A stretch of 64,000 bases of DNA from Stratiformator vulcanicus. Its GTDB lineage: Bacteria > Planctomycetota > Planctomycetia > Planctomycetales > Planctomycetaceae. Position 1 is the stretch's first letter, and each line of letters opens with the position of its first letter. The notes beneath the pieces are model-generated. The model saw nothing but the letters and a program-made list of their open reading frames with translations. It ran no database searches and was not told the DNA's origin. A program made the translations under genes and the position numbers. Location of the stretch: positions 696,482 through 760,481 of the forward strand of contig NZ_CP036268.1 of the NCBI RefSeq assembly GCF_007744515.1. Direction: 5' to 3'. This document shows positions 7,401-33,071 of this stretch, piece after piece.

Positions 7401-9254
7401 TTATCGCTGTCGAATAACCGGGCCGTCGCGTTTGGAGACGGCGTCGGGATCAGCCCCGCGTTTGGTGGCTTCGTCGAGCCGCTTCCGCAAGGTCGCGAAC
7501 GATTTTTTCACGACGGCGGGCCGATAGTTGGCCAGCGAAAGCATCGCGTCACGGACCTGAACTTCGGTGTCGCCGTAAAGGTCTTCGAACTTCGTCACGG
7601 TCGTCGGGTCGACCCGGACGAGGAGTGAGAATTGGTAGACTTCTTCCATCGACTTGAGTTGCTCTTCGACCGATCCTTCGGGGTCTTCGATCCATTCAAA
7701 CGGGACTCCGACCTGCGGCTTCTTGGCGTTCGGATTCCAATCGCGATAAGCGACGGCGAATGCCCAAGCGAGTTGGCGCGAACCGTCGTAATCGTAGATT
7801 TGCTCTTGGCCGACGTTGCAGATTTCTTCCATCACGCGCTGGCCGTAGGCCTCATCCATATCGGCCTGTTCGAGGTCGGCGGCGAGCTGATCGCACCAAG
7901 CTCGAATGGCGGTGCCGGCTTCGACCATGTCGTCCGGCTGTCCGAACGGCTGGCGCGCCAGAGCGGCGTACAATTTTTGGATCGTCGATTGGTACTCGTC
8001 GCCTCGATCTTCGAGCCGAGCCGCGACCGTGACGAGGGCGTTCGGCCATTCGTGGAGCGTGGGCCGACCGGCGCCGGCCGGTTGCGGACGTTCCTGACGC
8101 CAGCTCGGCTGGTAAAGCTCATGATGGCAGGCGTAGCAATTGAAGCTCGACAGTTCGGGCCATTCAGCACTCGGCTTTTCGAGCGGACTGCTGACGGAGG
8201 GATCGCAAATGTCGGCGGCGAGCCCCACCGTTTCACGGAGCGACATCACGGCCCCGATCAGCATCTGGCGGGTCTGATGCTTCTGGTTCACGTCGAAAGT
8301 CAGGTTCAGCTTTTTGAGGTAATCGTCGCGAACATCTGCCGGCTTTTCCTCCATTTCCTTCCAGTGCCGCGGTTCCTGATTGATGAAGGTCCGCAGTTCG
8401 AAACCGGGCAGCGGCGGATGGCCGGCGGCGTACATTTCGTGCGTGACGATCTTGCCCTGCCGCACGTTGCCGACGTGACACGACAGGCAGATGCGCGCCT
8501 GCATCTTGCGATCTCGCACGTCCCAGTAACCATACTTTGAGAGCTTTTCTTCAGATGAGAGGTTGCGCCACTTCGGATCGAGGTGCGGCTGATACCACGA
8601 AGATGCGGTACTTCCTTCGGCGGGGCTGCTCGGCCCGTGACATCCTTCGCAACTGACGCCCATCCCGAACAGCGCAGCTTTCACGCTGCCCTCTTCGACC
8701 GTGCCGAAGTCTTCAATCACGAAGCGGCAGGCATCGCTACGCTCCGCAGCTTGCTGATCGAGGGTGAGTTGACTGACCGGGAACGAGGCGTGGCAGGCAA
8801 GGCAACGCTGATCGCGATGGATGAGCGAAGCCCCGTTCTCGTCGACGACGCCCATGCGTCGGGCCATTGTCTGTGACCGCTCCGACTTTAAGGCCAGCGA
8901 TGCTTTTGCGTGCTTATCGAGTTGGACCCAGATCGCCTGTGAATTCCCCTGAATCCACCCGCCGGTTTGATTCACCAGCAGGCTGGCTCCCGGAGGGGCC
9001 GGTCCAACCGATTTCGTCGGCACCGGCAATTGCGAGTGACAGCGGGCACACAATCCGTAGCCGACCACCTGCCGACCCTTAATTGCATCGTGATACCATT
9101 CCGCCTCGAATTTGCCGCCCGTGCCATAGCGCGTCGGCGCGGGATCAGACTCCTGAGCCTCTTGTGCCGGAGCGATGCCGCAACAGGTCAGAGTGACGAA
9201 CAGAGCCGTGCAGCAGGAGAATCGCGAGGAATAGGACTTCACGAAATCGACCAA
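7401..9254 (-). CDS. Secreted pentaheme cytochrome c
   Basis: 617 residues with an N-terminal signal peptide. The first codon used is TTG at 9254; GTG at 9242 would give a tidier signal and is equally possible. Five CXXCH haem sites are visible at residues 69-73, 151-155, 202-206, 256-260 and 373-377. The segment around site 3 (GVSCEGCHGPSS) and the AAGHP motif after site 4 are typical of the cytochrome c554/c552-like multihaem family. After the last site (FNCYACHHELY) a 240-residue haem-free helical region follows. The role is probably periplasmic electron transfer or reduction of a small nitrogen or sulfur compound; no substrate can be named. It lies 112 nt downstream of another pentahaem gene in the same direction. 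Confidence 0.85.
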   Translation of the reverse strand: MVDFVKSYSSRFSCCTALFVTLTCCGIAPAQEAQESDPAPTRYGTGGKFEAEWYHDAIKGRQVVGYGLCARCHSQLPVPTKSVGPAPPGASLLVNQTGGWIQGNSQAIWVQLDKHAKASLALKSERSQTMARRMGVVDENGASLIHRDQRCLACHASFPVSQLTLDQQAAERSDACRFVIEDFGTVEEGSVKAALFGMGVSCEGCHGPSSPAEGSTASSWYQPHLDPKWRNLSSEEKLSKYGYWDVRDRKMQARICLSCHVGNVRQGKIVTHEMYAAGHPPLPGFELRTFINQEPRHWKEMEEKPADVRDDYLKKLNLTFDVNQKHQTRQMLIGAVMSLRETVGLAADICDPSVSSPLEKPSAEWPELSSFNCYACHHELYQPSWRQERPQPAGAGRPTLHEWPNALVTVAARLEDRGDEYQSTIQKLYAALARQPFGQPDDMVEAGTAIRAWCDQLAADLEQADMDEAYGQRVMEEICNVGQEQIYDYDGSRQLAWAFAVAYRDWNPNAKKPQVGVPFEWIEDPEGSVEEQLKSMEEVYQFSLLVRVDPTTVTKFEDLYGDTEVQVRDAMLSLANYRPAVVKKSFATLRKRLDEATKRGADPDAVSKRDGPVIRQR

Positions 9255-9313
9255 TCGAAAGGAGTGAAATGACAGAAGGGCGTCCGGTCCTGACGTGCTT
9301 TTCCTACAGATTC

Positions 9314-9342
9314 AGAAGTGTACTGCTTTAGAAGTGTACTGC
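9314..9342. promoter_or_regulatory. Two 13-nt direct repeats upstream of the pentaheme gene
   Basis: AGAAGTGTACTGC occurs at 9314-9326 and again at 9330-9342, a 16-nt period, in the 112-nt gap between the two pentahaem cytochrome genes. They lie 60-88 nt upstream of the start at 9254. The spacing and position would suit a regulator-binding site. No known consensus is recognised. Confidence 0.35.
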
Positions 9343-9366
9343 GACGACAATCGCAATCACGAACCG

Positions 9367-10905
9367 CTACAACGTCGGCCCCGGAGGCGAACGCCGCCGG
9401 ATGACTTCGGGATCACCAAGCGGCGCCGGTGCCGCACTTCGAAGATTCTCAAGCACGATCTCGGCATCGCGTGGCCGGAAGGACACCGGACTGGTGGCCT
9501 GTCGACGACTCCCAAGGTAAATCGACGGAGTCCGGAACGCGAGAATCGATCGGGCCGATCGCAAAGAATCTCGAGAAGCGATCCATTGCTCGGGTGTGTA
9601 GAGCGTCGGGCCTGTCCGCAGAGCTGCGGCTGCCAGATAGAGCTGCGCCGTCAGTTCCCAGTTCGGATCGCCGCTCGCGAGCCGGTTGAGCGTTTCATCC
9701 TGCGAGAGATGGTCCATCAGGGCCGCAATTTCGGCCTTTGCTAACGGCTGCGATGCGGCGGTCTCCAGCATCGTAGCGTATTCATCAGCCAGACGACCGA
9801 CCTCGGCCCCGGTCCCTCGTCGCACTACGAAACTGCTCATCTTGTCGGCCAATTCGGACCGGAGCGCTATCGTCTCGTCGGATGCCAATGGCAGTTCGGT
9901 GGCGAGTACGCCGCTCCACGTTCCCCATTGCGGCTGACCGGTGCTGCCCGGTTTGAGCAAGCTGCCCTCGGGATTGAGCAGGTCTTGGTGGCATGAGTAG
10001 CAGTTGTATTCGCTGAATTCCGGCCAAGGTGCGTCGGGGTTGCCGGCCCGATGGGCCGTCAACCGGGCGGTTGACTCGGCGGACACGAGCTGTCCGATCC
10101 GCCACAACTCGGCTTTCAACGTCGAAGCGCGGGCAATGTCGCCGCGCGACAGCGATCCTTCAAATTCCGAGCGATCGACGTACTTCCGTTGGTCTTTGCT
10201 ACGGTCCCAGTGTGCCGGATATCGCTCATGGTACGAGGCGAGTTCGAAGAACAGCCGGGGGTGACCGGCGGCGATCAGATCGTGATTCACTTCGCGGCTG
10301 TCATCGCCGACATGACATGAGGCACACATTCGGGCTCGCGTGACGAGATCTTCGGTATTCTGAAATCCCGCAGCTTCTTTGCGATCGGCAGTCCAAATGG
10401 AAGGGTTTTGCCAGGCGGAGGTCGCGTGTGCCGAAATCCAGTCCCGGGCCGGTCCGTGGCACGACTCGCAGCCGACACCGTAAGACATCCTCGTCTGCAG
10501 GTCGGACCCGGTCACCGCCAACTGGCTTTTCGGAATCGACGTCCCCGGCGGGTCGGCGTGACACACGATGCACGCCCGCGATTCGTAAGCGTATTTCGGC
10601 TGGAGTTCAGCATCCGGCAGTGTCGCCCGGTAGTTCGTCCAGATCTTCTGCGAGCGATCGCCATACAGCACTCGAAAGGCCCCCGCATGAGGGTCGTTGT
10701 TCCAGATGCGAAAGCTGTGCGCGATGATGCCGTCCGCGGCGACGTCGCTACCGTGACATGCGACCGCCGAACAGGAAGGCACGCCGAGATAGCGGTTGGT
10801 CCGCTCCGCCGATACCACACGTTCCTGAGCCAAGGCGAGCCCGTCGAAGCCGACCAAGATGACGACCGCGAGCGCGAGACCGATTTGAGATATTTTTTGA
10901 TTCAC
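9367..10905 (-). CDS. Secreted multiheme cytochrome c with an N-terminal CX4CH site
   Basis: 512 residues from GTG at 10905, chosen because GGAGAAG lies 8 nt upstream and a normal signal peptide follows (LALAVVILVGFDGLALAQ). There are four standard CXXCH sites at residues 112-116, 146-150, 194-198 and 302-306. The first Cys pair, CSAVACH at 45-51, has four residues between the cysteines. VNHDLIAAGHPRLFF after the fourth site and PWPEFSEYNCYSCHQDL at the fifth are shared with the protein at 25828-27438. It is probably a periplasmic c554-like electron-transfer or reductase subunit. The C-terminal 200 residues are helical, without haem sites. It is the first gene of a two-gene minus-strand unit and divergent from the export cluster. 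Confidence 0.85.
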   Translation of the reverse strand: MNQKISQIGLALAVVILVGFDGLALAQERVVSAERTNRYLGVPSCSAVACHGSDVAADGIIAHSFRIWNNDPHAGAFRVLYGDRSQKIWTNYRATLPDAELQPKYAYESRACIVCHADPPGTSIPKSQLAVTGSDLQTRMSYGVGCESCHGPARDWISAHATSAWQNPSIWTADRKEAAGFQNTEDLVTRARMCASCHVGDDSREVNHDLIAAGHPRLFFELASYHERYPAHWDRSKDQRKYVDRSEFEGSLSRGDIARASTLKAELWRIGQLVSAESTARLTAHRAGNPDAPWPEFSEYNCYSCHQDLLNPEGSLLKPGSTGQPQWGTWSGVLATELPLASDETIALRSELADKMSSFVVRRGTGAEVGRLADEYATMLETAASQPLAKAEIAALMDHLSQDETLNRLASGDPNWELTAQLYLAAAALRTGPTLYTPEQWIASRDSLRSARSILAFRTPSIYLGSRRQATSPVSFRPRDAEIVLENLRSAAPAPLGDPEVIRRRSPPGPTL

Positions 10906-11121
10906 GGTGACTCGCTTCTCCGAAAGTGTCGACGGACATCCGATAGGACAAGTACTCGCGTTCGAGTGCCACGAGCCGAGCAAAGGTCATCGACCGCAGC
11001 CCTTATCTCACATGGCCCGAGGCCATCGTGTCAAAGGCGGACTTTACGATCCCGAGGAAAAGACCTAAAAGCCGCAGTTCCTCCAACGTCTGTGCCTGTC
11101 GTCTCCGCCAGCTGAATTGTC

Positions 11122-13314
11122 GTGGAGCCGGATGCCGTGAGCGCGAACTCGATACCGATCGTCGAAGATCGCCCACTTCCGGTCCGGGGTCGTCGTGACC
11201 TTCGGTTCGAGCAGGTTCGCTTCGCGGGCGAAGTATCCTGGATCGTCAGCGATCCGGTCTCCGGCGACTATCATAGGATTTCGCCCGTTCAGTATCTGCT
11301 GCTCCAATCTCTCGACGGCTTAACCTCGCTTGCCGCATTAGCGCGGACGATTGAGCGGGTTTTCCCGTTTATGACCGTGTCATCGGGGGACGTGCAGCGA
11401 GATATTCAGGATTTGCACACCAAAAATTTCTGTGTCGTCGACCGTACCGGTCAGCACGCCGTCATCGATGAGCGGGCGACCAAGCGAGAGAAGCGACAGC
11501 GATTTTCATGGCTCCGCAATCCGTTGTTCATCAGCCTCAGTCTGGTCGATGTGTCGGGATTGCTCAGCGCTCTCGCCCCAGTCGGTCGCCTGATCTTCAC
11601 TCGCGACGTGTTTGCTCTCACGGCTGCACTCATTGCCGTCGCCACATTCGGGTTGGTGGCACAGGTCGAACAACTGGCCTTGGAGACGACGGCTTTGCTC
11701 GCCGGCGGATCGTGGTCGACGCTCGCGCTGTTTTGGGTGACCATTGGGCTGGCCAAGGTCTGCCACGAGTTCGGACACGCCCTGGCCTGCCGGAGATTCG
11801 GCGCTTATTGCAGCGACATCGGCGTCGCCCTGCTGCTGTTCAGTCCGTGCCTCTATTGCGATGTCTCCGACGCGTGGCGACTTCCGAATAAGACGCACCG
11901 ACTGATCATCGGAGCGGCCGGTGTGTGGTTTGAACTGACCCTCATGTCGATCGGTTTCTTCGTGTGGTCGATCACGCTGCCCGGCCCGATTCATACGATC
12001 GCACTGTGCTGGCTGATCGTGACGTCGGTCGGAGCTGTCCTGTTCAATTTGAACCCGCTGCTCCGGTACGACGGCTATCACCTCCTCGCCGACTATTTCG
12101 AGACGCCGAACCTGCGGCAGCGTGCTCGCACCGCGGTGCGGAAAATGTTCGGCCGAATGCTGTTCCGCGGTGAGTCGGGACGCGCGTCGACGCCCGAGCC
12201 GCTCTGGATTCCGATTTACGGGATGCTGTCCGGTCTCTATCAGATGCTCATGCTGCTGTTTATCGCGCAGATGTTTTTCCGATGGTCGTCCGGCTACGGA
12301 TTGGGCGCAGTCGCGACATTGGCTGTGGCAGGGATGGTTTGGGGCCAAATGCGAAACTGGGGAAATGCAATGCGGTTGACGTTTCGAGAGCAGTCCCGCA
12401 GCGGGTTCCGCCCGGCCGGAGCGATGCTCATGCTGATGCTGTTCGGTGGTGTTGGCTACGCTTTCGTCGCGGTGCCGATTCCGCGGTTCGCCGTCGTTCC
12501 TTCGGAACTCGAGCCGACTTCCGCACCGCTCGTTTTCTCCGCGATTCCCGGACAACTCATTGATCTGCACGTTGCCGTCGGCGAGCGCGTCGAGCAGGGA
12601 CAACTCATCGCGACCGTCCGGTCACGTCCGCTGGAAGACTCGGCGATCACTCAGCAGACGAGAATTGGTCGACTCAGGACAGAGCAGGCTCGCCGGATCG
12701 CGATGCGTGATCACGCCGGCCTGATTCTCGCGTCGGCTGCCTTTGAAAACGCGGCCGAGGTGCGTGAACAACTGACCGAGCACCAACGGAAGTGTGAGGT
12801 CCGCGCTCCCCGCGCGGGCATCATTGGTCCGGTCCCCGACTCGGATCGACGTTCGAAAACCGAAATCGACGTGCTCGCGGACGGGGCGATCGGCGCGTTC
12901 ATCGATCGCGGCACACCGTTGTGCAGCGTGAATGACGAGTCTCAATGGCGACTGGCCGGTCTGCTCAACGCCGAAGAGCGTGACGCAGTCGGCGAGCAGG
13001 ACGAAATCGAATTCCGCTTCGTTGCGGAACCTGAGACGGTTTATCGGGGACGAATCATCCGCATTCTGCCGTTCGTCACCGATGACGGTCGGGAAGAGAT
13101 GACTCGCGCGGAGCGGCTCGCCGATGCGGTCGGGCTGCAAGGCGGAGCAAAACATCGGCGGCGGTATCGCATTGAAGTGGTGCCGCACGAGTTGCCGGAG
13201 TTCGCGACCCGCGGATTGACTGCCGAGATTCGCATCCCCCTGCGATCACGCACCGCATTCGAATTTTCGCGCCGCTGGTTTCATGAGAGTTTCGTCGCCC
13301 CGGAACTGCATTGA
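11122..13314 (+). CDS. PqqD-like domain / M50 metalloprotease / HlyD adaptor fusion
   Basis: 730 residues from GTG at 11122; GTG at 11137 has a GGAG 9 nt upstream and may be the true start. Residues 25-107 resemble a PqqD-type winged helix (YHRISPVQYLLLQSLDG, then LHTKNFCVVD). A polytopic membrane region (about 160-450) carries the M50 zinc motif HEFGHA at 215-220 and LNPLLRYDGYH at 309-320, which supplies the third ligand. Residues 460-720 form a HlyD-like lipoyl/barrel section (AIPGQLIDLHVAVGERVEQGQL). The family is usually annotated as a putative peptide zinc metalloprotease. It heads a four-gene run with a SecA-like ATPase and two more HlyD proteins, pointing to processing coupled to export. 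Confidence 0.85.
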   Translation: MEPDAVSANSIPIVEDRPLPVRGRRDLRFEQVRFAGEVSWIVSDPVSGDYHRISPVQYLLLQSLDGLTSLAALARTIERVFPFMTVSSGDVQRDIQDLHTKNFCVVDRTGQHAVIDERATKREKRQRFSWLRNPLFISLSLVDVSGLLSALAPVGRLIFTRDVFALTAALIAVATFGLVAQVEQLALETTALLAGGSWSTLALFWVTIGLAKVCHEFGHALACRRFGAYCSDIGVALLLFSPCLYCDVSDAWRLPNKTHRLIIGAAGVWFELTLMSIGFFVWSITLPGPIHTIALCWLIVTSVGAVLFNLNPLLRYDGYHLLADYFETPNLRQRARTAVRKMFGRMLFRGESGRASTPEPLWIPIYGMLSGLYQMLMLLFIAQMFFRWSSGYGLGAVATLAVAGMVWGQMRNWGNAMRLTFREQSRSGFRPAGAMLMLMLFGGVGYAFVAVPIPRFAVVPSELEPTSAPLVFSAIPGQLIDLHVAVGERVEQGQLIATVRSRPLEDSAITQQTRIGRLRTEQARRIAMRDHAGLILASAAFENAAEVREQLTEHQRKCEVRAPRAGIIGPVPDSDRRSKTEIDVLADGAIGAFIDRGTPLCSVNDESQWRLAGLLNAEERDAVGEQDEIEFRFVAEPETVYRGRIIRILPFVTDDGREEMTRAERLADAVGLQGGAKHRRRYRIEVVPHELPEFATRGLTAEIRIPLRSRTAFEFSRRWFHESFVAPELH

Positions 13315-13330
13315 GGAGCAACAGGTCGCT

Positions 13331-15175
13331 GTGTCTGGGATGCTCGATTTCATTCGCCGAACAAGTGACGCGGTATGCCTCACCGCCGCGGGCCGGATTG
13401 CGCGACGTGCGAAATCGTTTGCGGCGCGGGCCAGTTCATGGTCAGCCGATCGTTTGCTCGAAGAAAGCCGGGAATTGAAGGCGGAAGCGACCGCCGGAGC
13501 GCCGAGCGCATCGCTCATCGTGCCGGCCTTCGGTCTCGTATGCGAAGCATCGCGCCGCGTGACCGGTTTGTCTCATCGGCGTCCGCAATTTGTCGGGGGG
13601 GCGGAATTGGCGAAGGGCCGAATCCTTGAAATGGATACGGGGGAAGGCAAGACGCTCACTGCTTTGTTGCCGACGTACGTGTTCGCACTCACCGGCAAAG
13701 GTTGTCACGTCGTCACGGCGAACGACTATCTCTCCTCGCGCGATGCCGAACACGCTCGAAAAATCTTCGAACTACTCGGGTTGACGGTCGGCTTTCTCGA
13801 ACCCGATTCCGAATTCGATGATCGCAAAGCGGCCTATTTGTGCGACGTCACGTTTGGCACTGAAAAGGAATTCGGATTCGACTACCTGCGTGACCAATTG
13901 CGAATCGCCGACGCCCGCGCAAAGGGCATTAGGCCGGAAGTCGTGCAGCGTGGTCAGCACTTTGCAATCCTCGACGAGGCCGACAGCATCCTGATTGATC
14001 AGGCACGTACACCTCTTGTGATCGCCGTTCCGCGGGCGGAGCAACGTCGTGACGACCGTCTTGCCCGCTGGGCCTGGGCTGCGGCCTGCGAACTCGATCC
14101 GCAAGCTGACTTCGAAAACTCGAATCGCTCGCGTGAAGTTCGGCTAACTCGCAACGGGCTTTCAAAGGTCGTGTCGCGGGTCAAGCCGACCGCATTGGAA
14201 GAACTTCGTTTTGAACGGCTTGTTCGGCAGGTGGAAAGCTCTGTCGAAGCCCGCCGCCATGTCGAACGCGATCGCGACTACGTCGTGCTCGACGGGCGGA
14301 TCGAGATCATCGATGAGTCGACCGGTCGCATTCTGACGGGGCGTCGTTGGCGGAACGGGCTGCACCAAGCGATCGAAGTAAAAGAACGGCTCGACCCGAG
14401 TCCGGACGATGGAACCGCCGCAGAAATCACCGTTCAGTCGTACTTCCGAAAATATGAGTTTCTCGCGGGGCTGACAGGAACGGCCCGCGATGTCGCCGGC
14501 GAAATTCGGCTAGTCTTCAACAGAGACGTCGTGAGGGTGCCTCCGTTTCTGCCGTGTCAGCGCAAGAGGCATCCAACGATAGTGACGCGAACTATTGCGG
14601 AGAAATTTACCGCGATCGTCCGCGAAACCGCTCGCGTGAGCGAAGCCGGTCGATCTGTGCTGATCGGGACGGGCACGGTCGAAGATTCGGAAAGGCTGTC
14701 GGCCGAATTTGAACGCGACGGAATCGCCCACGAGCTTCTGCACGCCCGCCATGACGCCCGTGAAGCGGAGATCGTGGCGCAGGCCGGTCAGGCCGGACAA
14801 ATCACAGTGGCCACCAACATGGCCGGTCGCGGGACCGACATCCGCCTCGCACCGCAAGTGAAAAACGCCGGCGGTCTGCACGTGATTATCGCCACTTTTC
14901 ACCGCTCGCGCCGCTACGACCGGCAACTCGTCGGTCGCGCGGCCAGACAGGGCGACCCGGGCAGCTATCGCATCATCCTCTCTCGTGAGGAGATCGAACT
15001 GGCGCGAAACAAGGAACCGGGGCTGACGGTGCGTAGGTTCGCGAACTTGCAACGAGCCCTCGAACGTCGTGACCGCAAGAGTCGTGCGGAGTTACTGAAG
15101 TCCGAAGAGACACGTTTCGAAGCGGCCGAGGATCTCGGCCTCGATCCCGTTCTTGAATGGCCGACCGCGGCGTGA
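13331..15175 (+). CDS. SecA-like ATPase lacking the C-terminal scaffold/wing domains
   Basis: 614 residues from GTG at 13331, with GAGGAG 12 nt upstream; an in-frame ATG at 13283 would overlap the preceding gene. The SecA DEAD motor is clear: MDTGEGKT (101-108), VVTANDYLSSRDAE, FGTEKEFGFDYLRD, ILDEADSILID (213-223), ATNMAGRGTDIRL, and VGRAARQGDPGS as the last motor motif. Preprotein cross-linking features such as GRR-W-GLHQAIEVKE are retained. Canonical SecA is near 850-900 residues. Here only about 50 residues follow the motor, so the two-helix finger, wing domain and zinc-binding tail are missing. It probably couples ATP hydrolysis to the neighbouring M50/HlyD machine and is not a housekeeping SecA. 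Confidence 0.88.
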   Translation: MSGMLDFIRRTSDAVCLTAAGRIARRAKSFAARASSWSADRLLEESRELKAEATAGAPSASLIVPAFGLVCEASRRVTGLSHRRPQFVGGAELAKGRILEMDTGEGKTLTALLPTYVFALTGKGCHVVTANDYLSSRDAEHARKIFELLGLTVGFLEPDSEFDDRKAAYLCDVTFGTEKEFGFDYLRDQLRIADARAKGIRPEVVQRGQHFAILDEADSILIDQARTPLVIAVPRAEQRRDDRLARWAWAAACELDPQADFENSNRSREVRLTRNGLSKVVSRVKPTALEELRFERLVRQVESSVEARRHVERDRDYVVLDGRIEIIDESTGRILTGRRWRNGLHQAIEVKERLDPSPDDGTAAEITVQSYFRKYEFLAGLTGTARDVAGEIRLVFNRDVVRVPPFLPCQRKRHPTIVTRTIAEKFTAIVRETARVSEAGRSVLIGTGTVEDSERLSAEFERDGIAHELLHARHDAREAEIVAQAGQAGQITVATNMAGRGTDIRLAPQVKNAGGLHVIIATFHRSRRYDRQLVGRAARQGDPGSYRIILSREEIELARNKEPGLTVRRFANLQRALERRDRKSRAELLKSEETRFEAAEDLGLDPVLEWPTAA

Positions 15176-15318
15176 CGCCTGTGAGCCTCCGTCTTGACCG
15201 GTGGGACACGCAAAAACTACAAGCCGGGCGGTCCCTGTCGGAGTGACGACGATTTTTCGAATTGTCATTCGTCGTGGATCATCGAGTTTATTCAATCGTT
15301 TCCTTAATCGTCGGCAAT

Positions 15319-16197
15319 ATGCGACCTCACATCGTTTGCAGTGCAGTGCTCGCGACTTATTTCGTTGGGGCGATCGCTTCCGCTGAGGGAGGTTCGCTGG
15401 TCATTGATCGCTGTCGTATCGAACCATGGCGAACGACGACGCTGTCTTCTGCGGTCAACGGAGTGCTCCAGACGATCGACGTCGAAGAGGGCGACACCGT
15501 TCAAGCCGGAAGTGTCCTCGCCCGGCTCGACGCCAAAGCGGTGCGGGCCTCGCTGACGTACCTGGCCAAACAGGCCGAAAACGATATCGATCTACGCTTC
15601 GCTCGCAAGGCCGCCGAACTGGCCGAAGCGGAGTACCTCGCCGCGCGCGAACTCAACAAAGAGTTTGCTGGGGCGCGGCCGGAGTTCGATCTCAAAAAAC
15701 TTCGTCTTGCCGCCGAACGCTCCATTCTGCAAATCGAACAGGCTGAGCACGCCCGACATCTGGCGCAGCTCAGGGTGAGAGAACTCGAACTGACACTGGC
15801 CGACTACTCGATCGTGGCCCCGCGTCGCGGTCTGGTCACCAAAGTTGAGAACCGTGCCGGCGAATTCGCCCGGTCGGGTAATGCGATCATCGAAATTGCC
15901 GAACTCGACCGCGTCGAGGTCACCGGCGACGTCCCCGCGGCGGTCCGCTACCGGCTTGCCGTCGGGACGCCGGTCCGGTTCACCGTGACGGGAGACGTCG
16001 GTGATGGTCCCCTTCGTAACCGTGTTTTCGCCGGGACGTTGAGCCTGATTGGTTCGCGCGTCGAACCGGTCTCGCAAACGGTGACGATTCGAGCCGTGGT
16101 CGATAATGCCGACGGGCTCCTGCTTCCCGGATTGGACGGACGAATGATCGTTGACGAACAGCCGTTCGCCAATCGCCGGGCAGCCCGGCGGCGTTAA
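15319..16197 (+). CDS. HlyD/RND-type periplasmic adaptor
   Basis: 292 residues from ATG at 15319 (an upstream ATG at 15262 would put 19 extra residues before the signal peptide). A signal sequence ends near residue 22. Then comes a biotinyl-lipoyl half-motif (SSAVNGVLQTIDVEEGDTVQAGSVLARLD), a long helical hairpin rich in Ala/Glu/Leu (about 80-160), the second lipoyl half (YSIVAPRRGLVTKVENRAGEF) and a beta-barrel domain. This is a membrane-fusion protein of a tripartite system. No inner-membrane RND or ABC pump is encoded beside it; the partners are M50, SecA-like and GAF-HlyD proteins. The 143-nt gap to the SecA-like gene is the largest in the run and may contain an internal promoter. Confidence 0.85.
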   Translation: MRPHIVCSAVLATYFVGAIASAEGGSLVIDRCRIEPWRTTTLSSAVNGVLQTIDVEEGDTVQAGSVLARLDAKAVRASLTYLAKQAENDIDLRFARKAAELAEAEYLAARELNKEFAGARPEFDLKKLRLAAERSILQIEQAEHARHLAQLRVRELELTLADYSIVAPRRGLVTKVENRAGEFARSGNAIIEIAELDRVEVTGDVPAAVRYRLAVGTPVRFTVTGDVGDGPLRNRVFAGTLSLIGSRVEPVSQTVTIRAVVDNADGLLLPGLDGRMIVDEQPFANRRAARRR

Positions 16198-16275
16198 TTC
16201 GGGAAGCCGAAACGTGGCCCGGCGAATTGATCCGGAATCACGAAGATCGCAGTCGTGCTTCGAGGTTGAAATCGG

Positions 16276-18246
16276 ATGCAAACCGAGAGCGAAATTCGAC
16301 CATTTTCCGAACGCCTCGGCGATGCCGCGCGCGATGATTTCGTCCGTCTGGCCGACGATGCCTCCGACGCGCGACGTTTCTTCGCAGACCTCTTGCCGCG
16401 TCTGACCGAGCTGTTGGGCGGCCGCGCGGCCGGCGTCTGGATCGGAGAAGGGGGCAATCTCGGATTGCTCGCCGACTATCAACTCGCGCAGGTGCAGATC
16501 GGACAGGATGTCCGCGTTACCCGCGGGGCCGAAGCCTGCGTGCGTTCCGCACTGGGCAAAACCCTGCCGTCTAATCGTACTCTGACGCTGCCGGGCGGCG
16601 AACCTCTCGACTTGCTGCTGATTCCGTTCTCGCCGGATCGGTCCTTGCCGGGCGTACTGAAAATTGCCGGGCCGGCAGGTTCGCTCACGCTCGCAGACGA
16701 CTCCGATCGGTCGGCTGCGGAAGAGATCGGCACACTGATCGAGCGATTCTTCGACCGCGCTGCCGAGGCGGCCCGGTCGACCGATCCCAGTTGGGTGACC
16801 GCTCAATTCGCCCCCTTTTGCGAACAGTTGCACGCGACGCTCAACGCGAAAACCGTGTGCCGTGTCGCCGTCGATGAAGGCCGTCATCTACTCAATTGCG
16901 ATCGTTTGATGATCGTGCGACGGCGCGGGGGTCGTTGGCGCGTTAGCGCGGTCTCCGGTCAGGGCACAATCAGTCGACGCTCGCCGTTGGTGAAACAAGT
17001 TGAAAAACTGGCGCAGGTGATTGGTCGCCGGACAGAGCCGCTGCGCTACCGGGGTAATCTCGACGACTTCCCCAAACAGCCGGGGCGTTTGTTGGCCCAG
17101 TATGTTGATGCTCACGACGTCCGCCTCCTGGATTTAATTCCGCTCATACCTGAAGAACCGAAGGGTGATGGCCCCAAGCGCCGGCGGAGAAAGCCGCGGG
17201 CAATTCTCATGTGCGAGAATTTTCGCTCCAATGCCCCTTCGACCGAATACGAACACTGGGGCGCCGAATGCACCGGTCAAATTGCGACCGCTTTAACGAA
17301 CGCCGAGCGTTTCGAACGCCTTCGACGAATCGCTCCTTTGGAATCGCTCGGCGCGGCGGTCGAGAGTCTGTGTTCTCGCCGCATCGCGATCGTCGCGCTG
17401 GTCATCTCATTGGTGCTCGGGGCGGGTAAGGTCGCTTCGCTGGTGCCGGTGCCCGATCGTGTCCGCTGTTCCGGAAATCTGTGGCCGACTGTCCGGCGCT
17501 CGGTCTTCGCCCCGGCAGAAGGTGAGGTTGTTGCCCTTCATGTTGGTGAGGGTGCCCGCGTTACGCCGGGAATGCCATTAATCCAACTCGAAAGCGACCT
17601 GCTGAAGACACGGGAAGTAAAGCTGAAAGGAACGATCAGCGAGAAAGAACTGTTGGCTCATGCGCTCGAAATCTCAGCGACCTCGGACACCAACCTCGAT
17701 CAGCAGCGGCGAATCGAATTAAAGAGCGACTTGGCAGCGCTGCACGTCGAACTAATCGGTTTGCGACAGCAACTCGAACTCGTTCAAGAGTCGCAGGCTG
17801 AGTTGTCGATTGTGGCACCAATTCGAGGTGTGATCGTCGAGCGAGACCTGTCGCGGCGACTTCTCGGCAAGCCGGTCGGCATCGGCGAAACATTCCTGAC
17901 GGTCGCCGATGATCAAGGCGATTGGAAAGTGGAAGCCGACTTACCGGAGCGACGTTGGCGAAAATTTGATGACGCGAATAGCCGTGGAGACGTCACCATT
18001 CGATATCGCTTCGCGGATGGTTCCGGCGAGTGGGCAGAGGCGCAATTCGTAAGCTATGCGACTGGTGCAGAAAGAGCCGACCTCGGTCAGGTCATTAAGA
18101 TCGATGCGGAACTCGAACTAAAAGATCAAAAGCTGCCGCCGATCGGCTCTGCGGTCGAAGTGGAAATTGATTGTGGCCAAGTCGACCTGTTAAGTTTTCT
18201 GTTCGAAGACGCGATTGCCTTCGCCCGGCGGACGCTCTGGCTGTGA
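16276..18246 (+). CDS. GAF-domain / HlyD adaptor membrane protein
   Basis: 656 residues, ATG with GAGG 10 nt upstream. Two GAF-like sensor regions occupy about 30-160 and 185-345. One transmembrane helix follows at 369-388 (AIVALVISLVLGAGKVASLV). The periplasmic C-terminal half is HlyD-like: FAPAEGEVVALHVGEGARV (410-428), a helical hairpin, SIVAPIRGVIVERDLSRRL and a barrel. The topology puts the ligand-sensing part in the cytoplasm and the adaptor in the periplasm. It is the last gene of the export run and ends 18 nt before the convergent Fe-S protein gene. It might gate the exporter in response to a small molecule, which is inference from the fusion. Confidence 0.82.
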   Translation: MQTESEIRPFSERLGDAARDDFVRLADDASDARRFFADLLPRLTELLGGRAAGVWIGEGGNLGLLADYQLAQVQIGQDVRVTRGAEACVRSALGKTLPSNRTLTLPGGEPLDLLLIPFSPDRSLPGVLKIAGPAGSLTLADDSDRSAAEEIGTLIERFFDRAAEAARSTDPSWVTAQFAPFCEQLHATLNAKTVCRVAVDEGRHLLNCDRLMIVRRRGGRWRVSAVSGQGTISRRSPLVKQVEKLAQVIGRRTEPLRYRGNLDDFPKQPGRLLAQYVDAHDVRLLDLIPLIPEEPKGDGPKRRRRKPRAILMCENFRSNAPSTEYEHWGAECTGQIATALTNAERFERLRRIAPLESLGAAVESLCSRRIAIVALVISLVLGAGKVASLVPVPDRVRCSGNLWPTVRRSVFAPAEGEVVALHVGEGARVTPGMPLIQLESDLLKTREVKLKGTISEKELLAHALEISATSDTNLDQQRRIELKSDLAALHVELIGLRQQLELVQESQAELSIVAPIRGVIVERDLSRRLLGKPVGIGETFLTVADDQGDWKVEADLPERRWRKFDDANSRGDVTIRYRFADGSGEWAEAQFVSYATGAERADLGQVIKIDAELELKDQKLPPIGSAVEVEIDCGQVDLLSFLFEDAIAFARRTLWL

Positions 18247-18264: not shown

Positions 18265-20805
18265 TCACTGAATTTCGAGAGCGGCGATCCCCCGGTCTTT
18301 ACGGATTTCCTCAAGCAATTCGGACCCCCTCATACGATGGGCGGCATCATGCGGGCAGGCGTAAACACAAGCCGGCTCTCGCTTTTTAAGCTTCTTGATC
18401 AAAGTGTTGTCGACGTTTTCACTGGTATCGTCTGCCGATCGACCGCCCGGGGACTGGCACAGGTCACAGATGGTCGCCCGAACCTGAAGTTCGGCTTTGC
18501 CGTCGCGGCCTTGGATCGGAGCATCGCGTGAACTGCCCCCGCCACGGAGCCAACCGAGCGCCGTCGTGGCGTTGGCTTTGACCTCATGCATGTTGATATT
18601 GCCGTAAGGGCAATTATCCGCGCACTCCCCGCAACCGATGCACCAGTTTTCGATTTTCATCTCGCCACTATCGCCGCGGTGAATCGCGTCGACGGGGCAA
18701 CCCACCATGCAGGTCGGGTCGAGACAGGCTCTGCAGGAACTGGCGACGAGAAACTTGTCGAATCTCATCCCATCGCGAATTAAGCGCGTAACTCCTTCGT
18801 GAGCATCCGCGCACGCGCGGACGCACTCATCGCAGCGCGTGCATTTATGAAGATCGAGAACGAGCAAGCTGCGCGCATTTTGCAGGCCCTGTTCGAGGAA
18901 CTCACCGAGCCCCATCGATTCAGGGTTAAAATTGACGGTGTCGTCCGCCTGCAACCGCTTAATCGCGACCTTGTCGATCTGTTCCCGGAAATCGGAGTTG
19001 GAGCGATATAACTCGGCAAACTTGTCGGCCGGTATTCGTAGTAGTTCGACATGATCAACCGCGGTGCAAGTTGCGGTGCGTCGACCTCGGACGGCCTCAG
19101 GTAAGAGCTGCTTAATCTCCTCGCCGGCGTCCGGAAATCCGCTGATGCAGGCCAGTTCGCCAATGCAACTGTTCGGTCCGACGTAACTGCGGACGAACTC
19201 TTCCCCGTTTGCGGTCGTCGTTGACACCTTGACGAATCCGATCCGGACCAGATCGACCGAATCGGCTGGGCCGCCTTGCTGGTAAATCGTTTGGCCGGGG
19301 TTGACCTCGATGAGTTGAACTCGATCGCGCAGATATTCTGTAATCTCATTGAATTTCTGGCCGTCATTCTTCAACGGCCGAAGGATATCAATTTGCCCGA
19401 GGAAGCTGCTAATCGCGCTGCGGCGGAAGCGTTCATCGAGAATGCGTCGCGTCTTCAGGTTTCGCTTCAATGCTTGAAGCAAGTTTCGCCGGATCTCGAT
19501 CACCGAGCAATCGTCGTCAAGAGCGACGACGGTGGCCGAACGGGGGTAATTGCTCAGGCAGGTCATTTCACCGAAGAGCAGGTCTTTTTCATCGAGAATC
19601 GTGCGACCATTCTCATCGTGGCCAGCGACCGCCTCGCCGACACCGCCCGAATTCTCGCCTTGGGAATCGCGTACGACCGTCTTAAAACTGTTGAATAAAC
19701 CGAAAAAACTTTCGGGCTTTGATTCGGTCTTGCCACGTTCACGTCGCTTGACCTCGAATCGCCCTGATTCGATTAAAAACGCAGTTGAACCATGCTCACC
19801 CTCTTCGAAGACAGTATCACCTTTCTTTAGGCTTCGTCGCCAAAATGCCCGTTCATTAAACTGCAATAGGCGTGGAGGAAGGTCGCGGACGAGCGGAAAG
19901 CTCTTCCGCAGTTCGACAAACGAGATGTCCTCGGCGTAATCCGGAAGTTGATGCTTAGAACCTTCCTTAAAGGACAGCGCATCGGTGGGGCAACTGATCG
20001 CGCACTCGCCGCACGAGACGCAATTTGATTGACCCATCGGATCATTCAAATCAAACGATATTTTGGCGGCGTAGCCCCTTCCCGTCCGGGAAATAATATC
20101 GTTCTTCACGACTGTCTGGCAGGCCCGGACGCATCGGTCGCACAAGATGCACGCCGAGTGGTCGACATCGATCATTGAGGAGGAGCGGTCCTGCCCGCGA
20201 TTCGCTGAACTGCGACCGAACCGAGGGACGCCTACGCCGACCTCACGGGCGATACTCGACAGTTCCTGCGTAATGTCGGACTCGCGGGTTGGATTCAGAT
20301 GCTCTCGGGGATCCGGTTGGTCGGACGAAAGCAACTCAGTCACCATGCCGACGACCGACTTCACTTTGTCGCTGGTTTTCGCCGTGAAGATGTCGGTCTT
20401 GTCGTCGACCAGCCGGTGACATGCCGGTGCGAGCGATCCTTCCGACCTTCCCTCGGACCGAACCTCAACCATGCACACGCGGCAGACCGCGGCCGGCTCC
20501 ATATGCTCGCGATGGCACAGCACATGAATCGGATTTTGCTCGTGCAGCTTCGAATAGGCCTCGTTTGCCGCGTCGTAAATTGTGGTGTAGCGATACTGCG
20601 CATTCCCGGCGGCATCCCGGATCGGTTCGGCGTTGGCATCGCGCGCGATCTGCACCCGCGGCACGGTGATCGCGCGACCGTCGATCGTCACGGAGACGAA
20701 CTGATTGATCATCTGCTCGTCGGCCGGTTCAAGCGAGACGAGCTGGCCCTCGACCGTATATTGAAGAATCTCATCCCCGGTCGTGGGGTTTAAATCGAGA
20801 GCCAT
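18265..20805 (-). CDS. NuoG-like Fe-S protein with two cNMP-binding domains
   Basis: 846 residues. Order of parts: a [2Fe-2S] plant-type segment with Cys97, 108, 111 and 129; two [4Fe-4S] motifs (CILCDRCVRAC at 219-229, CVSCGECAISCP at 262-273); two cyclic-nucleotide-binding-like domains (about 318-450 and 490-620, each with the FGE/IGEL turn); and a four-cluster ferredoxin domain (CTRCDECVRAC 655-665, CRACLDPTCMVGCP 691-704, CIGCGECADNCP 722-733, plus CDLC/CVYACP). AAGGGAT precedes the ATG. It is the last gene of a tight operon with a NuoE-NuoF fusion and likely passes electrons from that flavoprotein. Two CRP-type domains inside a redox subunit are unusual and imply allosteric control. Confidence 0.85.
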   Translation of the reverse strand: MALDLNPTTGDEILQYTVEGQLVSLEPADEQMINQFVSVTIDGRAITVPRVQIARDANAEPIRDAAGNAQYRYTTIYDAANEAYSKLHEQNPIHVLCHREHMEPAAVCRVCMVEVRSEGRSEGSLAPACHRLVDDKTDIFTAKTSDKVKSVVGMVTELLSSDQPDPREHLNPTRESDITQELSSIAREVGVGVPRFGRSSANRGQDRSSSMIDVDHSACILCDRCVRACQTVVKNDIISRTGRGYAAKISFDLNDPMGQSNCVSCGECAISCPTDALSFKEGSKHQLPDYAEDISFVELRKSFPLVRDLPPRLLQFNERAFWRRSLKKGDTVFEEGEHGSTAFLIESGRFEVKRRERGKTESKPESFFGLFNSFKTVVRDSQGENSGGVGEAVAGHDENGRTILDEKDLLFGEMTCLSNYPRSATVVALDDDCSVIEIRRNLLQALKRNLKTRRILDERFRRSAISSFLGQIDILRPLKNDGQKFNEITEYLRDRVQLIEVNPGQTIYQQGGPADSVDLVRIGFVKVSTTTANGEEFVRSYVGPNSCIGELACISGFPDAGEEIKQLLPEAVRGRRTATCTAVDHVELLRIPADKFAELYRSNSDFREQIDKVAIKRLQADDTVNFNPESMGLGEFLEQGLQNARSLLVLDLHKCTRCDECVRACADAHEGVTRLIRDGMRFDKFLVASSCRACLDPTCMVGCPVDAIHRGDSGEMKIENWCIGCGECADNCPYGNINMHEVKANATTALGWLRGGGSSRDAPIQGRDGKAELQVRATICDLCQSPGGRSADDTSENVDNTLIKKLKKREPACVYACPHDAAHRMRGSELLEEIRKDRGIAALEIQ

Positions 20806-20806
20806 G

Positions 20807-22573: not shown

Positions 22574-22577
22574 CTCG

Positions 22578-24443: not shown

Positions 24444-24463
24444 GGCAGGTGACGAAATCCTTC

Positions 24464-27470: not shown

Positions 27471-29393
27471 CTACTCAACAGGCAGCGCATCGTACGTTCG
27501 GGCCGGCTGGCGCGAGAGTTCGGGCTGCGTCGACTCTTCAAGAACCGACTCGTTGAGAGAGGAATCTTCGAGTAACGCCGGTGCCGGTGGGGGCGAATCG
27601 ATGCCCCGAGGTGGAACGCCGCCGCTCGGAGGACGCTGATTGACGAGCGTCCCGGTTGAAGCGAACCAATCGGTGACCGCGTTGGCCAGATCGACTTCCG
27701 CCGAGAATCTTGCTTGGACGGCGACGCCCCATTCGCGGCGTGCCCGTACAAGCCGGTCGACATCGCATTGCCCGTGGCGATGTAGTGACGTGATCGCATC
27801 GAGGTGTGTTTTCGCGGCACTTTCCGCTGTCCGGCTGCGATCGACCAATTCCCGCCGATAGCGAACGTCATCAGCGGCCTGGCGGACTTCGTCTTCGACC
27901 TGCCGTTTTAACTGTTGAAGCCGTAACGTCTCCTGATGCAGGTCCACTTCGGCTTGGCGGACCGACGCGTTCGCGGCTCGCTGACCGACCCAGTGCTGGT
28001 ACCGGATGCCCGCGGACAAGCTCCCGAATTCTCCGCTGGAAAACGCGTCGAGGCTTCCCGGAATGTCTTCGGCCAAGCCATTCAGACCCGCACCGGCGAA
28101 TAGTGACAGATCGGGCTCCAGGCCATCGCGCGCTTGCTTCAGGCGGAGGTGAGCCGACCGCACTCGGTAACGCTGCGAGTTTAGGTCAGGGCGACGCAAG
28201 CTCGACTCGGCCAATCCCCAATCGACGTCAATTTCAGCCGATTGCACCGACGGGCGATCGGCGATCAGCAATGGTTCGACCGCATCGTCCGGAAGCTCGA
28301 GCAGGCGCCGCAGTTGTCGTGATGCGGCCGCTTGCCGCCGGAATGCTTCGGTCTGCTCGCGACGAAGCTGCGCCCAATTCGACTCGGCTTGGGCTAACCC
28401 ACTGGCCGACCCGTTGCCGACCTGCAGTCGCTTCCGCTCCAAATCGACGGTCCATGAAGCCTGTTCAATTAACAGTTCCAGTTGGGCAACCTCTTCCTGA
28501 GCGAGGAATGCCTGCCAGTATTGGCGATGGACCGTCAGGATCGTCTCGTTGACGGCGGCTTCCGATTCCTCGATCGAAGCGGCATGTGTTTGTCGCGCGA
28601 GGAGGATCGGAATCCGGTTGATGTCACTGCCGCGTCCCCTCATCAGCGGTTGTTCGGCGGTGACGGCTACCGCCGATCGCCAAGCCGGATTGAGGATCAG
28701 CAGCGAGCCGGTCGGATCGGACTGCTGAAAGCCGTTCGAATAACCGATTCGTGTTCGCGTTCCATACTCCCAAAGTTTGGTCGCTTCCAGCTGATCGCCT
28801 AACCCGTTGGGGGCGTCGGCATTAGTCGTCTGGATGCGATCGATGCCGGTGCCGAACGACTCGACCGCCGACGCGACCTGCTCGTTCGCCGTGCTCAGAG
28901 CCAAGCCAGCTGCGAGTCGAACATCGAAGACCGATTCCGCCGCGGTGATTTCCGGGCGCGTTCGCTGCGGGAGATACCCTGCGATCCGAATGCCGAGGTT
29001 TCGCTCCAAGGCCAGGTAAATCGCGTGGTCGAGTTCCAGCAGATCGTCGTCGGATAGCGGGGACTCGAATGAGGCTGGAATGACCTCTCGATCAACCACT
29101 TCCGATTCCTGCCCGTCAGTGAATACGGCGCTTGCGACCAGTTCGGAGGCCTTTTTGCCTGTCCCGGACGCCTCCATCGGATGGTCCGGTTGGGTCTGGC
29201 CGCGTCCTGTGAAGGAAGTCACATTCTCTCGAAATCGTTCCCACGCGGCCCGCTCGGAGGATTCCGGGACCGAAAGCGAGGCGCAACCCACTGGTATGAA
29301 TAACGTTATCGCAATCGATATGGCCGCGAGCGCAGCGCGGACCGCTCCCGATGTTGAACGACGGCACGGCGGAGGTAATGTGGGCGCGCTCAT
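27471..29393 (-). CDS. TolC-family outer-membrane efflux protein
   Basis: 640 residues from ATG at 29393; a TTG four codons upstream is less likely. The signal peptide ends at a Gly-Cys (residues near 36-37), so it may be a lipoprotein. Two OEP repeats are visible: one with LALERNLGIRIA and long helices rich in Gln, Ala and Glu (LERKRLQVGNGSASGLAQAE), and a second with RRPDLNSQRYRVRSAHLRLKQARDGLEPDLSL. The Pro/Ser-rich C-terminal tail (about 50 residues) is probably disordered. This is the only outer-membrane channel gene seen in the window, and 9 kb upstream three HlyD-type adaptors lack a channel. A functional pairing is plausible but not shown. Confidence 0.88.
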   Translation of the reverse strand: MSAPTLPPPCRRSTSGAVRAALAAISIAITLFIPVGCASLSVPESSERAAWERFRENVTSFTGRGQTQPDHPMEASGTGKKASELVASAVFTDGQESEVVDREVIPASFESPLSDDDLLELDHAIYLALERNLGIRIAGYLPQRTRPEITAAESVFDVRLAAGLALSTANEQVASAVESFGTGIDRIQTTNADAPNGLGDQLEATKLWEYGTRTRIGYSNGFQQSDPTGSLLILNPAWRSAVAVTAEQPLMRGRGSDINRIPILLARQTHAASIEESEAAVNETILTVHRQYWQAFLAQEEVAQLELLIEQASWTVDLERKRLQVGNGSASGLAQAESNWAQLRREQTEAFRRQAAASRQLRRLLELPDDAVEPLLIADRPSVQSAEIDVDWGLAESSLRRPDLNSQRYRVRSAHLRLKQARDGLEPDLSLFAGAGLNGLAEDIPGSLDAFSSGEFGSLSAGIRYQHWVGQRAANASVRQAEVDLHQETLRLQQLKRQVEDEVRQAADDVRYRRELVDRSRTAESAAKTHLDAITSLHRHGQCDVDRLVRARREWGVAVQARFSAEVDLANAVTDWFASTGTLVNQRPPSGGVPPRGIDSPPPAPALLEDSSLNESVLEESTQPELSRQPARTYDALPVE

Positions 29394-29438
29394 GGTTGAT
29401 ACCAAAAGAATCGGCTCAACCGGTGTACGCCCTCTAGT

Positions 29439-32735: not shown

Positions 32736-33071
32736 TTGAAGTTCTCCGAAGCGGACCGGCCTTCGGCCGACAGTCGCGGTATTGCGGGAGAGGGTAGGAC
32801 CGAAAACGCAGTGCGAGGTCCGAGTTGCAAACCTGTTGTTGTTGATTGCCACTCTGAGCAACCGCCGCGGCGGCGGCAAACCAAACTCTCACTACATTGT
32901 GCGACCGACGGACGAAAAGTTCTTTGACGAGCAGGGGCGAGAACCACGAAGTATTTTGGAAAAGCCGATGAATGCTGGCCATTTTAATTTACAGACGGCT
33001 GGACTTGAACGTATGAACCCACGAGAATACGGTCTTTGCCGACATGTCTTTCAGGGATTGCCGGGGGCGAA
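32736..33071. other. Divergent intergenic region, phosphatase and TIR genes
   Basis: These 336 nt separate the phosphatase and TIR-protein starts. Apart from ribosome-binding sequences at both ends I see no gene, repeat or clear promoter. The stretch near 32940-33000 is more AT-rich than its surroundings and is where the TIR gene promoter would be expected. Confidence 0.5.

Follow-up and report, generated by a model that had tools for sequence, protein, structure and literature searches.

What does a secretion-like locus export when it joins a SecA-family ATPase, a membrane protease and three periplasmic adaptor parts? The question is raised by a 64 kb stretch of the Stratiformator vulcanicus genome (64,000 nucleotides, positions 696482-760481 of the 5.23 Mb contig NZ_CP036268.1; hereafter the window). 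At positions 11122-18246 it carries a compact block of four intact plus-strand genes, flanked by opposite-strand genes. These encode an M50 protease fused to an HlyD adaptor (M50-HlyD), a short SecA-like ATPase, a free HlyD adaptor and a GAF-HlyD fusion. The window copy is called cassette A, the source genome is G000 in locus handles, and the paralogous loci are cassettes B, C, D and E. A preliminary description of the window had taken the block for an undescribed export system. That idea turns out to be a rediscovery, because the main text of Kamneva, Poudel and Ward (2015; PMC4452313) already describes the locus and proposes the mechanism. It reports a 'secondary SecA_DEAD' gene with M50/HlyD, HlyD and GAF/HlyD genes in Planctomycetes, Verrucomicrobia, Proteobacteria, Nitrospirae and Chlorobi, and proposes that SecA supplies ATP hydrolysis and that M50 is a membrane pore beside HlyD/OEP components. 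For Methylorubrum extorquens AM1 it assigns the four genes to a single operon. By word search, the same main text names no substrate ('substrate' occurs once, in general use) and lacks the words 'giant', 'adhesin', 'leader', 'PqqD' and 'LEPR'.

Our answer is that cassettes of this kind encode a TolC-dependent, type I-like exporter of the sort proposed in 2015, whose substrates are proteins with a LEPR-XLL leader, often giant surface proteins without a Sec signal. We give this reading a probability of roughly 60%. It is based on the domains, the gene order, the agreement of SecA and M50 distances, the co-occurrence and linkage with LEPR-XLL, and the lack of a Sec-like signal by the motif. The locus itself has been known since 2015; new here are a candidate substrate class and a recognition domain for it. 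In the published main text the locus was left without substrate or biology, and the LEPR-XLL domain is named once in each of two papers, in passages that give it no function; joining the two makes each testable. Among open-licence PubMed Central papers we found none that connects the M50-HlyD/SecA locus with LEPR-XLL, and one later paper, in the part available, merely cites the 2015 work.

Co-occurrence and linkage with LEPR-XLL proteins

LEPR-XLL was scored with NF012209 at its curated cut-off of 17 bits. The phylum survey was one draw of 148 genomes at completeness >=90%, the phylum being taken as Planctomycetota on the strength of how the 80 related loci are named (the nearest M50-HlyD loci, all in planctomycete-named records and many on short contigs). 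Up to seven M50-HlyD and eight SecA candidates were scored per genome, and copies may be missed. M50-HlyD was present in 43 of the 148 genomes and LEPR-XLL over the cut-off in 24, and 23 of these 24 also encode M50-HlyD (Fisher p=3.7e-14). The association persists when the window's own genome, the origin of the idea, is removed (22/23, p=1e-13). At family level, all 10 LEPR-XLL families lie among the 20 M50-HlyD families of 55 (p=6e-6), and permutation within families, seven of which are mixed in state, gave p=0.011. A PEP-CTERM control motif of 24 positions, equal in length to LEPR-XLL, gave 23/63 against M50-HlyD (p=0.06). Deinobacterium chartae was the sole species with LEPR-XLL over the cut-off among 14 control genomes.

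Physical linkage was seen on plasmids of Proteobacteria. The sample comprised 22 M50-HlyD-bearing records from alpha-, beta- and gammaproteobacteria, chosen for genus spread and not at random: 4 came from a 64-record search and 18 from 60 listed of 76 matching records. LEPR-XLL exceeded the cut-off on 17 of the 22 (13/15 plus 4/7), and the motif beside M50 lay on the M50 strand in 17/17. On 15 of these plasmids the motif opens one uninterrupted frame of 2,381-12,957 residues that ends 1.6-4.1 kb upstream of M50; the intervening DNA holds other adaptor genes, where annotated or detected. One of the 15, from Pseudohalocynthiibacter, has a giant frame that crosses the record origin in phase. The two exceptions are Tistrella, with the motif downstream, and Caballeronia, with an interrupted upstream frame. 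Thus, giant repeat proteins, which had been suggested as possible partners of the cassette, do both co-occur with M50-HlyD and adjoin it in the form of LEPR-XLL giants. In the alphaproteobacterial cassettes L143, L144, L147, L148 and L163, a small DUF3467 protein is encoded in the stretch that separates the giant gene from those for the adaptors.

The plasmid motifs fall into two dialects. All nine on SecA-plus plasmids end in LL(S/N/A)AD, one of them reading LLAAD, whereas eight of nine readable motifs on SecA-minus plasmids end in (F/Y)D(A/G)x, a count that includes a sub-cut-off match in Eleftheria (12.7 bits, at the start of a giant gene). Thalassospira is SecA-minus and yet has the LL(S/N/A)AD ending. 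The association of motif ending with SecA gave p=4e-4, on records that are not independent. Frame lengths divide in the same way: plasmid LEPR frames span 8,199-12,957 residues with SecA and 1,893-7,208 residues without it, the interrupted Caballeronia frame being excluded. M50-HlyD plasmid records also reach enteric bacteria, with 18 counted for Escherichia and 8 for Citrobacter. For example, on the E. coli G5 plasmid (L160, IncHI1B) an 11 kb Ig-like giant gene is followed by genes for TolC, two adaptors and M50-HlyD, with no SecA nearby and no LEPR-XLL over the cut-off.

The source genome has seven LEPR-XLL sites over the cut-off, three of them beside cassettes B, C and D (Table 1). The other four lie far from M50-HlyD loci, open frames of 758, 811, 4102 and 5921 residues and have the motif form EPLEQRV(M/L)LSG; the 5921-residue frame is at G000:C1:550813 (L023). 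A strict regular expression for LEPR-XLL missed 6/9 leaders, and NF012209 was used instead, together with a profile built from 26 leaders. The net charge of the 40 residues before the motif is positive in 21 of 24 leaders (7 from this genome and 17 from plasmids). The hydrophobic run near the motif (-40 to +20 residues) peaks at no more than 1.82 in 24/24, versus 2.07-2.98 in six Sec-type controls. LEPR-XLL proteins are often giant; their motif lies close to the N-terminus, and they generally lack a Sec-like signal.

Anatomy of the cassette and its paralogues

The four co-directional genes have the domains that had been claimed for them, with all frames intact and Pfam matches in each, the GAF match being weak in the window copy. 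The M50-HlyD and SecA-like genes share 32 overlapping bases. For the free HlyD adaptor, the start is probably ATG 15319 (292 residues) rather than the TTG, because a Sec-type signal (a hydrophobic N-terminus) follows the ATG. In GAF-HlyD, a cytoplasmic GAF-like sensor region is followed by a hydrophobic stretch near residue 375 (by eye) and a periplasmic HlyD adaptor; GAF matched at E<=0.1 in three of four aligned copies, that of the window included. As had also been noted, no ABC, RND-pump or FtsX component occurs among the four genes, a statement limited to the cassette, as the window was not scanned gene by gene. The preliminary account did not include the TolC-type gene that lies 9 kb downstream of cassette A on the opposite strand. 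Its product is a possible outer membrane exit for cassette A, although its membership is uncertain; in cassettes C and D, TolC-type genes adjoin the adaptor genes.

Table 1. Location and content of the features discussed (window coordinates unless a locus is named)
Feature	Length	Location	Strand	Matches or content
M50-HlyD fusion	730 aa	11122..13314	+	Pfam Peptidase_M50 6e-7 (over cut-off), HlyD_3 1e-7
Short SecA-like ATPase	630 aa	13283..15175	+	Pfam SecA_DEAD 1e-87, SecA_PP_bind 1e-24, P-loop_SecA 3e-43
Free HlyD/RND-type periplasmic adaptor	311 aa	15262..16197	+	Pfam HlyD_D23 4e-22; NCBIfam RND_mfp 104 bits (cut-off 94.9)
GAF-HlyD	656 aa	16276..18246	+	Pfam HlyD_3 3e-11; GAF E=0.086 (below Pfam cut-off)
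TolC-type outer membrane protein		27471..29405	-	OEP 7e-29; type_I_sec_TolC 70 bits, below curated cut-off
Cassette B		L006		SecA, GAF-HlyD, HlyD, M50-HlyD
Cassette C		L007		SecA, M50-HlyD and GAF-HlyD co-directional; HlyD on the opposite strand, adjoined by a TolC-type gene
Cassette D		L017		M50-HlyD without SecA; GAF-HlyD, HlyD, TolC-type gene
Locus E		L016 (M50-HlyD locus 7647-10824)		M50-HlyD and HlyD only; SecA and GAF-HlyD none found
Haem peroxidase with RTX repeats	898 aa	beside cassette B		LEPR-XLL 23.8 bits
Open frame	9375 aa	beside cassette C, start G000:C1:2425648 (L007)		LEPR-XLL 17.0 bits, with its neighbours in frame
DUF4347 protein		beside cassette D		LEPR-XLL 21.9 bits
Four multihaem cytochromes and NuoEF-like fusion		7401-10983, 18265-27438		around cassette A
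TIR-domain protein		33036-35063		TIR_2 1e-15, Thoeris ThsB-like 1e-5; zinc-ribbon-like start and one hydrophobic stretch (by eye); from its sequence, a possible defence or signalling protein

The genome holds three complete four-gene cassettes, namely A and two further ones, so the window cassette is not a chance assembly. A full-length SecA is encoded elsewhere in the genome. Inspection by eye places genes for a glycosyltransferase and for an ABC-type exporter of polysaccharide or lipid next to locus E.

M50-HlyD had been described as a protease with its own adaptor domain. The HlyD part is confirmed, but a further, N-terminal domain had been overlooked. The protein consists of a PqqD-like domain of the RiPP (ribosomally synthesized and post-translationally modified peptide) recognition element (RRE) type at about 21-106, an RseP-like protease core and a MacA/HlyD-type adaptor at about 450-710. 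Site-2 proteases have a second metal-binding motif of the NxNPxxRxDG type; here, HExxH (H215, E216, H219) is accompanied by NxNPLxRxDG (309-318). H215, E216, H219, N309, N311, P312, D317 and G318 are invariant in the five own-genome copies and in an alignment of 51 sequences, which includes 50 of the 80 related loci (L032 was dropped for a stop codon). The structural model (predicted local distance difference test score, pLDDT, 85) matches MacA over 454-709 (Z 16.1) and A. aeolicus RseP over 199-391 (Z 10.0). All VIA-align rows for the model fall within 429-726, bar the one RseP row at 199-391, and none informs residues 1-110.

In RiPP pathways, leader peptides are bound by a PqqD-like fold; the evidence for this fold here comes from the model and from profiles. 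Residues 21-106 are modelled in bbb-aaa order. A profile of 37 M50-HlyD N-termini finds PqqD structures 3g2b (5e-5) and 5sxy (0.009) and, weakly, the lasso-peptide RREs TfuB1 (0.02) and TbiB1 (0.74) as well as other PqqD-type chaperones. PF05402 matches 35 of the 37 N-termini at E<=0.1. The best NCBIfam match of M50-HlyD is daptide_HExxH (NF041824) at 185 bits, below the curated cut-off of 300; RiPP_HExxH_LiaK also matches.

In the short SecA, both nucleotide-binding domains are retained, as is the preprotein cross-linking domain, and they are followed by one long helix that corresponds to the first scaffold helix. In full-length SecA, the wing domain and the two-helix finger lie beyond this helix. 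No Pfam wing/scaffold domain (SecA_SW) is listed for the short protein, from which the helical wing, the two-helix finger and the C-terminal linker are all missing, and its profile aligns with residues 15-608 of B. subtilis SecA (3jv2). Its model (pLDDT 85) is closest, among the matches shown, to SecA bound to SecY and substrate (5eul, 6itc; top template modelling score 0.83). Motor motifs are invariant in 14 diverse short SecA sequences, which have a conserved C-terminal GxDP end in common. The truncation is, on this comparison of sequences, old. A chance or degenerate SecA was considered and ruled out, given that the truncation is common to the 14 diverse sequences with their conserved C-terminal end. 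In pairwise comparison, the window's short SecA is 38% identical to the genome's own full-length SecA and 45-48% to the short paralogues.

Annotation masks the family: short SecA is called 'prepilin peptidase' in Methylosinus (L148:14111-16027) and Pseudosulfitobacter (L151:14963-16987) and 'DEAD/DEAH box helicase' in L147 and L163. In Rhizobium johnstonii (L150:3270-5410) the SecA-like gene is split over two frames, and in the close relative L149 it is in one.

The expectation that the four genes form a conserved unit in relatives was borne out. Cassettes recur, and the SecA and M50 distance matrices agree (r=0.90 over 24 pairs, with 0/20,000 permutations as high, species history being uncorrected). 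The pairs came from three own cassettes, 13 of the 80 loci and 8 of 9 plasmids, L150 being excluded for its split frame; for the 16 planctomycete pairs, r=0.76. Many supported clades, though not all, are common to the SecA and M50 trees; cassette C, for example, is placed with L106/L107 in the M50 tree but with L042 in the SecA tree. What did not stand is an obligatory SecA. It lies beside M50-HlyD at three of five loci of this genome, at 9 of 22 plasmid loci and at no fewer than 13 of the 80 related loci, a minimum given how many of these sit on short contigs. Short SecA was found in at least 31 of the 43 M50-HlyD genomes, counted by frame length or closeness to M50 and again a lower bound, since G004, G069, G077, G092 and G107 stand outside the count. 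Genome G018 has M50-HlyD with full-length SecA only. SecA is optional for the M50-HlyD module, because two M50-HlyD loci of the source genome lack it.

Proposed mechanism and competing readings

From anatomy, homology and co-occurrence we infer the steps of leader binding, pore, energy coupling, cleavage and gating. A substrate would carry a leader, that is, a mostly basic N-terminal stretch ending in a LEPR-XLL-type motif, which the PqqD-like domain of M50-HlyD would bind at the membrane. The short SecA, having kept its ATPase and polypeptide-clamp domains, would clamp the unfolded chain and drive it into or past the M50 membrane domain, which would form or border the path and may also remove the leader by cleavage. 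From there, a TolC-type protein and the HlyD parts contributed by three of the cassette's proteins would conduct the chain out of the cell. Gating may fall to the GAF domain, as a sensor of when to run. Least secure in this scheme are the pore and the requirement for SecA.

At stake is how Gram-negative cells could export proteins that reach about 13,000 residues and have no Sec signal, and of what a SecA reduced to motor and clamp is still capable. We hold tentatively, at somewhat less than even odds, that this is a separate secretion class, in which a SecA-family motor without SecYEG threads leader-tagged, often giant proteins through a recognition domain, protease and adaptor into a TolC-type conduit. 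On this view, secretion would be signalled by the LEPR-XLL leader, in two dialects (LLSAD-like and FDAA-like) matched to SecA-plus and SecA-minus exporters. If the link between the locus and LEPR-XLL is right, it would add a second kind of ATPase able to power a TolC-type conduit for proteins and would provide an N-terminal tag that could be searched for and engineered.

Several observations weigh against the exporter reading with LEPR-XLL substrates. The window has no LEPR-XLL site in the 64 kb around cassette A, so the substrate of this cassette would be encoded elsewhere; the four unlinked LEPR-XLL genes of the genome may be its clients. In 20 of the 43 genomes with M50-HlyD, no LEPR-XLL exceeds the cut-off, and in G087, a LEPR-XLL genome, no M50-HlyD was found. 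Twenty loci from 18 of those 20 LEPR-less genomes yielded only a few degenerate look-alikes, most of them recognized post hoc. Such motifs occur near the start of long frames by M50 in L202, L203, L204, L214, L215 and L217. They are suggestive only, because just L203 and L217 reach 8 bits with the 26-leader profile and because a hydrophobic stretch precedes the motif in L202 and L204. (At 8 bits this profile matched 8/1145 real N-termini, two of the eight being seeds, 2/1145 shuffled ones and 0/735 internal segments.) Among the 80 related loci, just 4 to 6 have a leader-like neighbour, although short contigs are frequent in this set. Five plasmids, from Magnetospirillum, Variovorax, E. coli, Phyllobacterium and Eleftheria, lack LEPR-XLL over the cut-off, and the Variovorax plasmid has a giant neighbour of 48.7 kb. 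On Pseudosulfitobacter NZ_CP085155.1, a second LEPR-XLL giant (W09:C1:43761, a 12,780-residue frame) lies far from the fetched M50; a second M50-HlyD place exists on this record. The plasmid rows are not independent, two Rhizobium records being near-identical at the motif, and the split of motif ending by SecA follows lineage in part. Among the 24 leaders, that of the cassette B protein has a stronger hydrophobic run further upstream, before later possible starts. Finally, the window's M50-HlyD on its own matches PF05402 marginally (E=0.083, 13.7 bits versus a gathering score of 23.4).

A genome-level signal could also arise by shared ancestry, with M50-HlyD and LEPR-XLL marking the same lineages by descent or transfer and having no joint function. 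Clade structure does supply part of it, 7 of the 24 LEPR-XLL genomes belonging to the window's own family. PEP-CTERM, too, is found in 17 of the 24 (p=0.002), a further point against the exporter reading, and because of this association shared lineage or lifestyle accounts for part of the signal. However, the signal holds at family level and within mixed families, and the control pairing of M50-HlyD with PEP-CTERM is far weaker. In a second phylum, moreover, the linkage is immediate and on the same strand on 15 of the 17 LEPR-bearing plasmids, and the motif variant tracks SecA. We give ancestry alone the least weight of all the readings. Nearly as improbable, in our view, is maturation or export of a small molecule or RiPP, with M50 cleaving a short peptide in the manner of the daptide or YydH/LiaK pathways and the LEPR-XLL link being indirect. 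The NCBIfam matches to daptide_HExxH and RiPP_HExxH_LiaK and the PqqD-like N-terminal domain are what one would expect in that case, but the daptide score falls below its cut-off, and the usual plasmid neighbour of M50-HlyD is a giant LEPR-XLL gene. A radical-SAM or other modifying enzyme is found neither among the four genes nor by name beside M50-HlyD in annotated plasmid operons (five records are unannotated there).

The surroundings of cassette A suggest that it could instead be part of an electron-transfer locus and, unlike its paralogues, help place or process surface electron carriers. Besides the cytochromes and NuoEF-like fusion of Table 1, its flanks encode a protein with 4Fe-4S domains and three cyclic-nucleotide-binding stretches (Fe-S/CRP) and a weakly ferric-reductase-like membrane protein (below cut-off). 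Cytochromes, the Fe-S/CRP protein, a NuoEF-like protein and, weakly, a cyclase recur around the M50 and SecA cassette of L089, and in L084 two cytochromes lie directly upstream of M50, SecA and GAF; the want of a LEPR-XLL site in the window fits as well. Relatives of the flanking cytochromes, however, occur in just 2 of the 84 loci compared, and the three flank cytochromes that were measured have ordinary Sec-type N-termini. The Fe-S/CRP protein is present in 12 of the 148 genomes and M50-HlyD in only two of those 12, in the second case on another contig. This distribution ruled out the window flanks as a general partner of the cassette, and since the Fe-S/CRP protein so rarely co-occurs with M50-HlyD the electron-transfer reading is kept for cassette A alone, where we judge it distinctly unlikely.

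A closer competitor accepts that M50-HlyD exports LEPR-XLL proteins and differs over the motor. The short SecA would serve very long substrates as a chaperone or unfoldase, and the energy would come from the proton-motive force, from folding outside or from the housekeeping SecA. M50-HlyD without SecA is indeed frequent (two of five loci in the genome and 13 of 22 plasmid loci, besides G018), the longest plasmid LEPR frames go with SecA, and by alignment the SecY-contacting parts are missing from the short SecA. On the other side, cassette B couples SecA with a protein of just 898 residues, and the giant neighbour on the Variovorax plasmid has no SecA nearby; both are exceptions to the size rule. 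The invariance of the motor motifs in 14 sequences and the agreement of SecA with M50 distances also count against this reading. We consider a chaperone role for SecA unlikely, though less so than the electron-transfer reading.

Relation to known secretion and maturation systems

The proposed exporter has HlyD/MacA-type adaptors and, possibly, TolC-type proteins in common with classical type I secretion (HlyB-HlyD-TolC) and with MacAB-TolC, and one-step export of large proteins is proposed for the cassette as in type I secretion. Unlike type I systems, it has no ABC transporter among its four genes (the rest of the genome was not searched) and a SecA-family ATPase instead. Classical type I substrates bear a C-terminal secretion signal, whereas the signal proposed here is an N-terminal leader. 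Accessory SecA2 is likewise a second SecA beside a full-length one, and solved relatives of the short SecA include C. difficile SecA2. However, SecA2 retains C-terminal domains that are missing from the short SecA, whose partner is the M50-HlyD protein.

The metalloproteases of daptide and YydH/LiaK pathways have an M50 core of the same type and provide the best NCBIfam matches. M50-HlyD differs from them in scores below the curated cut-offs, in its fused HlyD adaptor and in its linkage to giants and not to short peptides. In contrast to PqqD and RRE proteins, its recognition domain is fused to a membrane protease and an adaptor, and the ligand proposed for it is a leader on a giant protein. 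Closest of all is the locus of Kamneva and colleagues, which, as set out in their main text, has the same four genes, the same SecA without scaffold and wing, and the same idea of a SecA ATPase, an M50 pore and an HlyD conduit. To that account the present analysis adds three full paralogous cassettes in one genome, a comparison with SecA-less versions, the PqqD-like domain and the LEPR-XLL class of candidate substrates.

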